Assembly (NCBI GenBank): GCA_021772835.1
Contig: JAJFLE010000014.1
Coordinates: forward strand, 1-39,953
Direction: 5' to 3'
DNA: 39,953 bases
DNA from: Mariprofundus sp.
Lineage (GTDB): Bacteria; Pseudomonadota; Zetaproteobacteria; Mariprofundales; Mariprofundaceae
The notes under the pieces were generated by a model. It saw nothing but the letters and a program-made list of their open reading frames with translations, was not told where the DNA came from and did no database searches. Shown one piece after another: positions 6,823 through 10,038 of the stretch. The translations under genes were made by a program, and so were the position numbers. Position 1 is the first letter of the stretch. Every line of letters begins with the position of its first letter.

Positions 6823-7719
6823 ATGTTTGATTTGCTCTGTGTCGGCCATGCCTCCTACGATATTTCCATGGCAATAGAAAAGCATCCGGATCCGGATGAG
6901 AAAGTATTTGCTGATGCCATGAACCTTGCCGGTGGTGGTCCCGCAGCCAATGCTGCGGTGTGCATAGCGCGCCTTGGTGGCAACGCAGCCTTTTGCGGAT
7001 ATCTGGGTAACGACCTGTTCGGAGATCTGCATATGGCGGAGTTATCGGCTGAAGGTGTAGATGTTACGTTGGTTCAGCGCGGCCCTTACCCTTCACCGGT
7101 TTCTCAGATCCTTGCCAAACCGGATGGAAGGCGTGCTCTGGTCAACTTCAAAGGTGATACGCCGTGGCTGGATGCGGATGCAGTTGTCATGCCTTCACTG
7201 CCCAAAGTAATACTGTTTGATGGCCATGAACCGCAACTCTCTGTTCGACTCTGTCACTGGGCTGCTGAACGGGGCATCCCGACCATACTGGATGCGGGTT
7301 CCTTGCATCAGGGTAGCGAAGCACTTGCAGGTCTGGTTGATTATCTCGTGGCTTCTGAAAAGTTCGCGCGCCAGTGGTGTCAAACAGAGGATATGGGAAG
7401 AGCGCTGGATGAACTGCTTGTCATTTCGGAAAATGTGGTGATTACACAAGGTGAATGCGGCCTGGTCTGGGCAGCAGGTGGAAGAAAGGGTGAGATGAAT
7501 GCCTTTGCAGTTCATGCGGTAGATTCGACCGGTGCTGGCGATGCCTTTCATGGTGCATTTGCACTGGGGCTGGCAAGGAAGATGGCGTGGGATGAACTGC
7601 TGCGTTTTGCTTCTGCGGCAGGAGCACTGACCTGTACCCTACTGGGGGCCAGAATCGCTCTTCCCGCCCTGGCTGATACCATTCGTTTATTGAACGAACA
7701 GGAGGCAGGAGATGGATAA
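6823..7719 (+). CDS. PfkB/ribokinase-family carbohydrate kinase
   Basis: The 298-residue cytoplasmic kinase carries the PfkB N-terminal glycine signature (GGGPAANAAVCIARLGG, residues about 43-59). The C-terminal signature DSTGAGDAFHGAF, with the catalytic Asp, lies near residues 233-246. PfkB enzymes phosphorylate sugars or nucleosides with ATP; the sequence does not show which substrate is used here. It begins after the secG terminator and overlaps the next gene by 8 bases, so the two are probably co-transcribed. The best guess is ribokinase-like or fructose-type, and no neighbouring sugar pathway helps to decide. Confidence 0.88.
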   Translation: MFDLLCVGHASYDISMAIEKHPDPDEKVFADAMNLAGGGPAANAAVCIARLGGNAAFCGYLGNDLFGDLHMAELSAEGVDVTLVQRGPYPSPVSQILAKPDGRRALVNFKGDTPWLDADAVVMPSLPKVILFDGHEPQLSVRLCHWAAERGIPTILDAGSLHQGSEALAGLVDYLVASEKFARQWCQTEDMGRALDELLVISENVVITQGECGLVWAAGGRKGEMNAFAVHAVDSTGAGDAFHGAFALGLARKMAWDELLRFASAAGALTCTLLGARIALPALADTIRLLNEQEAGDG

Positions 7720-8035
7720 ACGCTACAGTGATGAACAGTTGTTGCGTATTGTTGATCAGGCTATGGTGTATCAGTGCGCCTGCCCTGCGCAGGTGGCTTC
7801 GGTCATGCGGGAGTTACGCAGGGTGGAAGTCTATCAGCAACGATGCCTCAATTTGACCGGGACCGATGAGGCCGTTCACCAACGCATCTCAGAGGATGTC
7901 AGAATTGTCCATGCGACCATGGAAGGTTGCCTGACCGCAGTGCTGGAGATGGAAGGCTGGGATATGGAAACATTGGAAATGCCGGACAACCTGAAAAAAC
8001 AGATGTCAAATCCAGTCAGTGCACCAAACAGCTAG
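7712..8035 (+). CDS. Conserved-looking small protein of unknown function
   Basis: It encodes 107 residues, mostly helical by composition and acidic, with no signal peptide or membrane segment and no motif I recognise. Two Cys in YQCACPAQ (residues 20-27) and single Cys at about 46 and 73 could bind metal, but the spacing fits no known site. It overlaps the sugar kinase by 8 bases and is preceded by AGGAGG within that gene (CAGGAGGCAGGAG), which supports translation. Function unknown. Confidence 0.65.
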   Translation: MDKRYSDEQLLRIVDQAMVYQCACPAQVASVMRELRRVEVYQQRCLNLTGTDEAVHQRISEDVRIVHATMEGCLTAVLEMEGWDMETLEMPDNLKKQMSNPVSAPNS

Positions 8036-8104
8036 GTTGCGGTAGCGATTGAGCGGCTGCTGAAAACTGTTTTCATTTGTGGCGGGTATGCCTACGCTGG
8101 TCGC

Positions 8105-8785
8105 ATGCGTATTTGGGATATCGATCCGGGTTACTTGGCCCGCCAGCAACTGCTCGGAGAACATCGTGAGCTGCACGGGCTTTACAATATTCTTACCCTG
8201 GGTAAAAAAGGATATGCAAGCCATCCGGAAACACTGCGCTGGGTGGGTTGTGTCGATGCGCTGTGCAGTCGCCACCAATCACTGCTCTGCGAGATGACAC
8301 TGCGAGGATACAATCACCACTCTCAGTTGCCGGAGGTACCGGCTGAATGCCTCCGGCCTGAGCGCTTTATCGATCCACCGGGCACACAGTTTCGTCTGTT
8401 GGCGGCGAAGTATGCTGATGATGATCGTAGTGGTCGTATTCCGTTGCCGAAAAACTGCCAGCAACTATGGGCGCAGCATAAGTATTCAGTGATGGCGCAT
8501 GACCCGAATCTATACCGCGAGCTGGGTTCGCAAGTGGCACATGGCTGTTACCGGGACGATTTTGACGGGTTGGCCTTGCTGCTGATTCAGGCTATATCCC
8601 GGCCGCCGCAACCCGGCCATCTGTTGAATGCCCTGCAGCATATGTGGGGTTACTTCAGTGGTAGAGGTAAACCGCCTGAGCAGCCAGCGGAATTTCTGAC
8701 TTCTATTCAGGATCTTGCCATAGAGCAGAAAAAAACCTATCTGTTGCATTCAACCGCCCTTTGCGAGCTGGCATTGTGGGTTTAG
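8105..8785 (+). CDS. Fusion: pyrimidine-dimer DNA glycosylase (T4 endonuclease V-like) + DUF1722
   Basis: Residues 1-about 118 match the Pyr_excise family as I know it: MRIWDIDPGYL, GEHRELHG (the Glu corresponding to Glu23 of T4 endonuclease V), HPETLRW and EMTLRGYNHHS. Such enzymes remove the 5' base of UV cyclobutane dimers and nick the backbone, using the N-terminal amine after Met removal. Residues about 122-226 match DUF1722: LWAQHKYSVMAHDPNLYRELG, GLALLLIQAISRPP, GHLLNALQHMWGYF. DUF1722 is normally attached to DUF523 in YbgA/RudS-type proteins, where it is thought to bind tRNA. Here DUF523 is encoded separately, starting 9 bases downstream. Both domains look complete and the catalytic Glu is present. 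The ATG at 8105 is fixed by the need for a free N-terminus. Confidence 0.85.
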   Translation: MRIWDIDPGYLARQQLLGEHRELHGLYNILTLGKKGYASHPETLRWVGCVDALCSRHQSLLCEMTLRGYNHHSQLPEVPAECLRPERFIDPPGTQFRLLAAKYADDDRSGRIPLPKNCQQLWAQHKYSVMAHDPNLYRELGSQVAHGCYRDDFDGLALLLIQAISRPPQPGHLLNALQHMWGYFSGRGKPPEQPAEFLTSIQDLAIEQKKTYLLHSTALCELALWV

Positions 8786-8794
8786 TGTCACTGC

Positions 8795-9316
8795 ATGCAG
8801 AAGATTCTGGTCAGTGCCTGCCTGCTTGGGGAGAAGGTTCGTTATGACGGCGGTGATTGTCGTCAGGGTGGCCTGCTGAAGCAATGGCAGCGAGAAGGGC
8901 GAATCATAATGCTCTGTCCTGAAGTGGCAGGCGGCCTGCCGATCCCCCGCCCTGCGGCTGAAATCATTGATGGCGATGCCGATGCTGTTTTGCGTGGTGA
9001 AAACCGCGTGCAAACGGAAAATGGAAGCGATGTGACCGATGCATTTGTCGAAGGTGCTGAAAAGGCACTGGCTCTCTGCATCAGGCACGGTATAAAAGTC
9101 GCCATACTCAAAGAGGGCAGCCCTTCTTGCGGCGTAAACAGGGTGAATGACGGCAGCTTCAATAAACAGAAAGTCGATGGTATGGGTGTGACGACAAGTC
9201 TGTTACAGCGCCATGGCATTGCGGTTTTCAGTGAGCAGCAGTTGCCGCTGGCGATACGGAAGCTGAACGGCCTGGAATCAGCAAGCTCAATGATCGTGGC
9301 AAAGGCGAAAAAATGA
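8795..9316 (+). CDS. DUF523 protein (TudS-like thiouracil/thiouridine desulfidase)
   Basis: The 173-residue protein is a stand-alone DUF523. The three cysteines expected to hold a [4Fe-4S] cluster are present: Cys9 in VSACLLG, Cys41 in LCPEVAGGLPIPRP, and Cys112 in KEGSPSCG. Members of this family remove sulfur from 2-thiouracil (TudS), or from tRNA 4-thiouridine when joined to DUF1722 (RudS). The missing DUF1722 partner lies in the gene 9 bases upstream, so the two products may act as a split RudS. The stop overlaps the start of the ZIP transporter gene by 4 bases. The family is clear; the exact substrate is inferred. Confidence 0.88.
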   Translation: MQKILVSACLLGEKVRYDGGDCRQGGLLKQWQREGRIIMLCPEVAGGLPIPRPAAEIIDGDADAVLRGENRVQTENGSDVTDAFVEGAEKALALCIRHGIKVAILKEGSPSCGVNRVNDGSFNKQKVDGMGVTTSLLQRHGIAVFSEQQLPLAIRKLNGLESASSMIVAKAKK

Positions 9317-10038
9317 TGGAGTGGTTCAATATTGTTTGGATGAGTGCAGCTGCAGGGCTTTGCATCCCGGTTGGAGGGTTTATCGCCAGTAGGGAACATA
9401 TTCATTCTGACTGGCTTGAAAAGGAGCTGCGTCATTTTGTGATTGCGTTGGGCGGGGGCATTCTGATTGGTGCTGTGGCACTGGTGCTGATTCCCGAGGG
9501 CATCAGCTATATGCACCATTCAATGGTGGCGATTCCTGTTCTGCTTGGCGGTGGCCTGACATTTTTTATGCTGGAGCGTGCCCTGGCACTGCGTCGGCGT
9601 GAAGCGCCACAGCTTTCGGGTATGTTACTGGACTATTTGCCGGAATCGATAGCCTTGGGAGGGATGATGGCTGCAGGCTCATCAATGGCACCACTTCTGG
9701 CGCTCTTTATTGGCTTACAGAATCTGCCGGAAGGGTTCAATACGTACCGGGAACTGAGGGGGATGGGCCATCATACTCCGAAACGGGTATTAACATTGAT
9801 GCTGGCGCTGGGGCCTTTGGGGCCGATACTGGCGTTGACAGGGTTCTTTTTTTTGTCAGATCATTTTGCCGTACTGGGCGGGCTTATGATGTTTGCATCT
9901 GGTGGAATCCTGTATCTGATCTTTCAGGATATTGCTCCGCAATCGCGGATGAAGCATCACTGGGCTCCACCATTGGGGGCAGTTTTAGGCTTCACGCTGG
10001 CACTGTTTGCAGCAATGATTGTGACAAGTGGGCCATAG
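9313..10038 (+). CDS. ZIP-family divalent metal transporter
   Basis: The 241-residue integral membrane protein has seven or eight hydrophobic segments. The ZIP metal-site motifs are LLDYLPESIALGG near residue 105 and GLQNLPEGFNTYRE near residue 138, whose Pro-Glu pairs line the transport path in helices 4 and 5. The usual His of these motifs is replaced (YLPES and NLPEG instead of HNLPEG), as in some bacterial ZIP branches. ZIP proteins import Zn, Fe or other divalent ions, and no His-rich loop indicates the substrate. Translation is probably coupled to the DUF523 gene by the ATGA overlap; one of two adjacent ATG codons (9313, 9316) is used. Confidence 0.82.
   Translation: MMEWFNIVWMSAAAGLCIPVGGFIASREHIHSDWLEKELRHFVIALGGGILIGAVALVLIPEGISYMHHSMVAIPVLLGGGLTFFMLERALALRRREAPQLSGMLLDYLPESIALGGMMAAGSSMAPLLALFIGLQNLPEGFNTYRELRGMGHHTPKRVLTLMLALGPLGPILALTGFFFLSDHFAVLGGLMMFASGGILYLIFQDIAPQSRMKHHWAPPLGAVLGFTLALFAAMIVTSGP

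Follow-up and report, generated by a model that had tools for sequence, protein, structure and literature searches.

The window, the whole 39,953-nucleotide stretch of Mariprofundus sp. DNA analysed here, contains a gene (positions 8105–8785, plus strand) in which a domain of the pyrimidine-dimer glycosylases is joined to DUF1722, described in the cited sections of the RudS report as the tRNA-binding half of that enzyme (PMC11417400). Which nucleic acid does such a protein serve, and does it work together with the desulfidase encoded directly after it? The product has 226 residues. Residues 1–75 (8105–8329) match the Pyr_excise family, PF03013, over positions 1–79 of the 81 in the profile (E = 7.4e-25; 87.6 bits against a cut-off of 23), and residues 126–204 (8480–8716) match PF08349, DUF1722, over positions 1–81 of 117 (E = 1e-12; 48.8 bits against a cut-off of 22.5). 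Both matches are significant, so the original prediction, in which DUF1722 lay within residues 120–226 and was attached to a T4 endonuclease V-like glycosylase, holds, as does its placing of DUF523 in a separate gene, the TudS start codon lying 9 nt beyond the stop codon of the fusion. PF04463 was not found in the fusion, nor PF08349 in the adjoining TudS, and no NCBIfam model scored above its cut-off for either protein. The genome of the window (92.7% complete) has a single match each to DUF1722 and PF04463; as these are the two genes of this pair, no RudS was found in it.

Genome contigs were scanned with the window protein and the resulting 29 loci read in frame: 22 contain fusions, three contain stand-alone glycosylase relatives (L023, L025 and L026) and four are Bacillales DUF1722 genes without a glycosylase (L027–L030). 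Among the 22, L018, L021 and L022 are cut, broken or frame-shifted, and L003 and L018 share one genome. Relatives align end to end at 40–67% identity, the closest being that of Mariprofundus sp. KV (67%), whose genome we take to be G016, from the window's genus, judging by identical match places. The fusion is present in 12 of the 37 Mariprofundaceae genomes searched, that of the window included. In the order to which the Desulfobulbaceae MAG G066 belongs, a fusion profile matches 38 of 193 genomes at a threshold of E = 1e-10, some matches being over partial length. The architecture is conserved. An assembly artefact as its origin is ruled out by full-length relatives in many separate genomes. 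Among phages and plasmids, partial matches occur in 11 and 3 records, respectively, none of them spanning 80% of the query.

The putative active site lies in the first 22 residues (8105–8170). In the alignment with T4 denV (alignment A2, 22% identity), Met1, Arg2 and Glu22 of the fusion fall on positions 1, 2 and 22 of mature T4 pyrimidine-dimer glycosylase (T4PDG), where position 1 is a threonine. The groups implicated in T4PDG catalysis are the amino-terminal amine and Glu22, as stated in the cited part of PMC3285167. Residues were counted in 42 fusion copies, in four of which DUF1722 has decayed or is short; the count leaves out the three cut, broken or frame-shifted genes, the three stand-alone relatives and, from a second set of 16 loci, L108, L110, L112 and L118, where no fusion reading frame was recovered (one was recovered in the other 12). 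Glu19, His20, Arg21, Glu22 and His24 are present in all 42, and so are Arg2, Trp4 and Asp5, although 12 of the copies were chosen by a motif requiring those three. MRIWDIDPG is invariant in an alignment of 21 sequences (A1), and Mariprofundaceae copies vary at several of these positions. The first codon is ATG in 40 of the 42 copies and TTG in those of G003 and G006; in G006 and G011 an ATG lies in frame four codons further upstream, which makes the start there less than certain. The start codon used here is predicted to be the true one, and the methionine, which aligns with the T4 threonine, would be kept as the amino-terminal residue. In L022 (3556–4050), where the fusion is cut by the contig end, Glu22 is replaced by isoleucine, and this copy is perhaps inactive.

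An AlphaFold2 model of the fusion has a mean pLDDT of 92.9 and a pTM of 0.89. Compared with the PDB using Foldseek, its top match is T4 endonuclease V (2end; probability 0.96, E = 0.74, TM-score 0.56 by target length). In BFVD, the chlorella virus dimer glycosylase ranks fourth (probability 1.00, E = 0.12), the top match being an uncharacterised pithovirus protein (E = 4.2e-3). Neither database gave a fold match below E = 0.001, and searching the PDB by sequence gave no credible match for the fusion.

The gene behind the fusion (8795–9316, plus strand; 173 residues) encodes a stand-alone TudS, matching PF04463 with E = 1.1e-45 (155.5 bits against a cut-off of 34.7) and the solved TudS structure 6z92 at 4.9e-40. 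It has Cys9, Cys41 and Cys112, corresponding to the [4Fe-4S] cysteines, and Glu43, Ser109 and Ser111, corresponding to the catalytic glutamate and serines; the matching residues are those named for TudS_P, and the preferred substrate of the TudS family is 4-thio-UMP, a product of tRNA breakdown (both from PMC10611767, cited part). One strong ThiI match suggests that the bacterium itself probably makes 4-thiouridine. Since ThiI matches at threshold occur in 34 of the 37 Mariprofundaceae genomes (in G007 by a weak match only), its presence is too common to be informative. In two other Mariprofundaceae genera, a stand-alone TudS gene lies about 2 kb from thiI (L077, G027:C6; L078, G033:C16).

Further along the plus strand, the TudS stop overlaps by 4 bp the start of a gene for a ZIP-like membrane protein (9313–10038), which scores below the PF02535 cut-off (30.7 against 35.1 bits). 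In L067 (4263–5681, from G020), a single frame of 472 residues appears to span the ZIP-like and methyltransferase genes. Upstream of the fusion are a small open reading frame (7712–8035, plus strand) that matches no Pfam family above cut-off and a PfkB-family kinase gene (6823–7719, plus strand; PF00294), both of which serve as synteny anchors: the former is also present in L063, L066 and L074, the latter in L002, L060, L063, L066, L067 and L068. The distance from the fusion stop to the next start is exactly 9 nt in the window and in L002, L060, L063, L066 and L067, irrespective of whether TudS, lipocalin or RudS comes next, and 4 nt in L068 (G026). The same six loci share, upstream of the fusion (about 8060–8105 in the window), a TTTC block that is conserved and is followed, after a spacer, by TACGCTG (TACCCTG in L063). 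This motif lies a few nucleotides 5' of the start codon, where no ribosome site is clearly recognisable, and is possibly a leaderless promoter.

Could the fusion and the adjoining TudS together be a RudS split in two, DUF1722 serving as an adaptor shared by the two proteins, as the original prediction also considered? The 9-nt spacing and the lack of a RudS match in the window's genome would fit a two-protein tRNA desulfidase of this kind, and the RudS authors, in the cited part of their report, allow a split in some species (PMC11417400). Two trees speak against it. In a tree of 43 desulfidase rows (41 different), 19 stand-alone TudS and 24 RudS domains part at 100/100; the window TudS falls among the stand-alone proteins, with those of G017 and G020 as its neighbours. 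In a tree of 59 DUF1722 rows (57 different), calculated without L018, L021 and L022, the 30 fusions form one clade (99/98) with the Bacillales DUF1722 proteins nearby, while the 24 RudS rows and E. coli YbgA are on the opposite side. Moreover, the fusion coexists with RudS and TudS in G001 and in KV, where fusion and RudS are followed by lipocalin and then stand-alone TudS. We reject the split on the trees and the coexistence in KV, and rate it as very improbable.

The linkage to DUF523 that the original prediction expected in other genomes exists, as a local one. In seven of the 12 Mariprofundaceae fusion genomes, the cluster also includes a stand-alone TudS; among 20 other fusion genomes (two with a broken or cut copy), TudS is adjacent in none and within 6 kb in two. 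Genome-wide co-occurrence was dropped as support: in the order of G066, PF04463 is nearly universal (183 of 193 genomes; 35 of the 38 with the fusion versus 148 of the 155 others) and co-occurrence is therefore uninformative. In five genomes of that order (G138, G171, G174, G200 and G203), a fusion-profile match and a PF04463 gene lie about 1 kb apart. L106, L107 and L109 come from three of these, and L111 from G125, where the two are about 5 kb apart; in all four loci the glycosylase domain is intact, DUF1722 has decayed or is reduced in length, and TudS- or RudS-type genes are nearby. The RudS-like gene of L107 and L109 has only about 175 codons and no DUF1722; those in L108 and L111 are of RudS length or longer.

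An expected linkage to photolyase did not prove general either. PF03441 was found in five of 32 fusion genomes (12 Mariprofundaceae and 20 others) and in four of the 25 Mariprofundaceae genomes without a fusion; with three Mariprofundaceae genomes holding both, there is neither association nor strict exclusion. In the order of G066, photolyase is above cut-off in two of 193 genomes, neither of which has the fusion. A recurrent neighbour outside the Mariprofundaceae is a short-chain dehydrogenase (SDR), which adjoins the fusion in nine of 21 loci (L003, L005, L006, L007, L008, L009, L014, L018 and L024), as well as in L113, L117 and L119 of the second set, on the opposite side in L119. The single SDR scanned matches PF01370 and PF08338, and we presume it to be of the TIGR01777 type; likewise, a gene in L073 is presumably a ferrochelatase. 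In L011 the gene before the fusion encodes a lipocalin, and in G058 genes for SDR, RudS, MerR and photolyase lie within about 5 kb. Two published stress regulons contain both a photolyase and a short-chain dehydrogenase, as given in the cited parts of PMC9758184 and PMC4336711, where the SDR family may differ from that of the fusion's neighbour.

Within the Mariprofundaceae, the fusion lies in a recurrent chromosomal neighbourhood: a variable cluster is preceded by the kinase, the small open reading frame and MipA, the last encoded on the minus strand, and is followed by a gene that we take, by eye, to be a methyltransferase (OMT) and by the genes for an EF-hand protein and YdjM. The flanks differ in part. 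The window is without MipA and has the ZIP-like gene where the methyltransferase sits, G026 has only the kinase and the methyltransferase in common, and the G017 contig starts near the small open reading frame. The cluster consists of fusion and TudS in the window, G012, G020 and G026; of fusion, lipocalin and TudS in G008; and of fusion, RudS, lipocalin and TudS in G001 and in G016 (KV). In one genome, G017, it consists of photolyase, RudS, lipocalin and TudS. The order in G008 is small open reading frame, MipA (minus strand), fusion, lipocalin, TudS, methyltransferase, EF-hand, YdjM; in G017 it is small open reading frame, MipA and glutathione peroxidase (both minus strand), photolyase, RudS, lipocalin, TudS, methyltransferase, EF-hand, YdjM. 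The photolyase of G017 is thus in the place of the fusion at a shared locus. The seven genomes whose cluster contains the fusion gave no match to PF03441, the only profile by which photolyases were counted, so that other photolyase types could be missed. Photolyase–RudS pairs also occur in G002, G006, G010, G011 and G014, and several of the photolyase–RudS clusters include MerR, glutathione peroxidase, lipocalin and BLUF genes. G006, G010 and G011 have a photolyase plus a fusion elsewhere in the genome, and in G008 and G012 a RudS gene is located elsewhere, adjoining a SOUL gene.

The reading we favour, which in our estimate could go either way, is that the fusion is a pyrimidine-dimer glycosylase/lyase that works without light, carries an extra domain for binding nucleic acid and replaces photolyase in a cluster of photostress genes. 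The alpha-amine of Met1, which corresponds to Thr1 in mature T4PDG, would act with Glu22 to break the glycosidic bond at a pyrimidine photodimer, presumably in DNA, after which the backbone would be cut, without need for light. The carboxy-terminal DUF1722 would be the added nucleic-acid-binding module. TudS would act as an independent 4-thio-UMP desulfidase and not as a subunit of the fusion; together with RudS and lipocalin in relatives, it would handle 4-thiouridine and other stress damage, while the fusion would take the role of photolyase in the cluster of this lineage, whose genes may be co-transcribed and induced by light or UV. The glycosylase part of this proposal draws on the two significant domain matches, the invariant Arg21 and Glu22 aligned with T4 denV, and fold matches led in the PDB by T4 endonuclease V and including the chlorella virus enzyme; the lack of fold matches below E = 0.001 and of credible PDB sequence matches counts against it, and we know of no activity for this fusion subfamily. 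That it stands in for photolyase is suggested by the position of the G017 gene and by the seven genomes lacking a PF03441 match. Weighing on the other side are the single photolyase genome on which the exchange rests, the three genomes with a photolyase and a fusion elsewhere, and the rarity of photolyase in the order of G066 with or without the fusion. The photostress theme is indicated by the gene content of the relatives' photolyase–RudS clusters, by the SDR and lipocalin genes adjoining fusions elsewhere and by the grouping in G058. DUF1722 itself is linked to dimer repair in E. coli, where ybgA, a stand-alone DUF1722 gene, overlaps phr by 4 bp, and in Shewanella, where ybgA shares an RpoE2 operon with phrB according to the cited part of PMC4336711. 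What remains of the original prediction of a combined photodamage module are therefore its domain calls and its theme, seen in the RudS, lipocalin and TudS neighbours and the G017 locus, without the general link to photolyase.

The main rivals concern the substrate. DUF1722 might bring the glycosylase to tRNA carrying a near-UV adduct of 4-thiouridine 8 and cytidine 13, or other pyrimidine adducts; the damaged tRNA would be cleaved and TudS would recycle the 4-thio-UMP. We regard this as unlikely, and slightly more so in its most specific form, the first tRNA-directed photodimer glycosylase, in which a T4PDG fold drawn to tRNA by DUF1722 would destroy near-UV cross-linked 4-thiouridine tRNA and TudS would recycle the sulfur-bearing nucleotide. 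The presence of ThiI, the clustering with RudS and TudS in Mariprofundaceae, the five genomes of the order of G066 with about 1 kb between the related gene and PF04463, and the TudS preference for a tRNA breakdown product are consistent with it. Against a tRNA substrate, no activity of the T4PDG family on RNA is known to us, the photolyase's place points to DNA, and L106, L107, L109 and L111 keep the glycosylase part while DUF1722 has decayed or is short. The cited literature cuts both ways: DUF1722 aids tRNA binding in RudS, yet E. coli YbgA alone left s4U unchanged (both from the cited part of PMC11417400), and T4PDG acts via an imine with the deoxyribose of DNA (cited part of PMC3285167).

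About equally doubtful is base excision of lesions other than UV dimers, such as oxidised or ring-opened bases, in a neighbourhood shaped by oxidative stress and not by light. Some carriers of the fusion come from dark habitats, which also speaks against a pure light story: L006 is from groundwater according to its record, and L015 and L024 are from DeMMO2 and SURF, presumably deep-mine sites. Glutathione peroxidase in the relatives' photolyase clusters fits as well, and the Shewanella rpoE2-chrR genes, with a regulon that includes ybgA-phrB, are induced by peroxide (PMC4336711, cited part). A dimer substrate is in turn favoured over such lesions by the photolyase at the same place in one relative, by the clustering with RudS and by the BLUF and MerR genes of the photolyase–RudS clusters. 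A catalytically inert adaptor with the PDG fold is very improbable. Nothing speaks for it directly; the cut-off L022 copy has isoleucine at position 22. Arg21 and Glu22 in all 42 copies, L022 being outside that count, argue the reverse.

The fusion differs from known systems in several respects. With T4 endonuclease V and the chlorella virus enzyme it shares the amino-terminal family PF03013, Arg2 and Glu22 (mature numbering) and probably the helical fold, but unlike T4PDG it starts with methionine in the motif MRIWD instead of threonine and carries the extra DUF1722. RudS, a TudS–DUF1722 protein, also carries DUF1722, and its gene adjoins the fusion in some relatives, but the fusion has no desulfidase domain and its DUF1722 is of another clade (RudS as described in the cited part of PMC11417400). 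TudS (DUF523; PDB 6z92), as described in the cited part of PMC10611767, corresponds to the neighbour at 8795–9316, with its catalytic residues, and not to the fusion. The YbgA–Phr pair of E. coli likewise couples DUF1722 to pyrimidine-dimer repair, there through gene overlap, but consists of two proteins, employs photolyase chemistry and has a YbgA that lies, in the tree of DUF1722 domains, on the same side as RudS.

Both halves of the fusion are known families. The combination and its position in the photolyase slot appear undescribed within the literature searched, outside which lie most subscription journals and the bioRxiv preprints: nowhere in it are DUF1722 and 'pyrimidine dimer' mentioned together, in agreement with the original prediction, which knew of no description. 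The main text of the RudS report contains neither 'pyrimidine dimer' nor 'endonuclease' (PMC11417400). The fusion would be a third coupling of DUF1722 to pyrimidine-dimer repair, beside the YbgA–photolyase overlap and the RudS–photolyase gene pairs, and the small size of the protein makes it testable which nucleic acid DUF1722 serves. The shared locus suggests that, in some bacteria, photolyase and an enzyme independent of light have been exchanged for one another at a single cluster. Among the stand-alone relatives, the dimer-glycosylase gene of a Bacteroidetes MAG (L026, 4725–6336) follows, at a distance of about 10 nt, a gene whose product combines DUF1295 and TspO domains.
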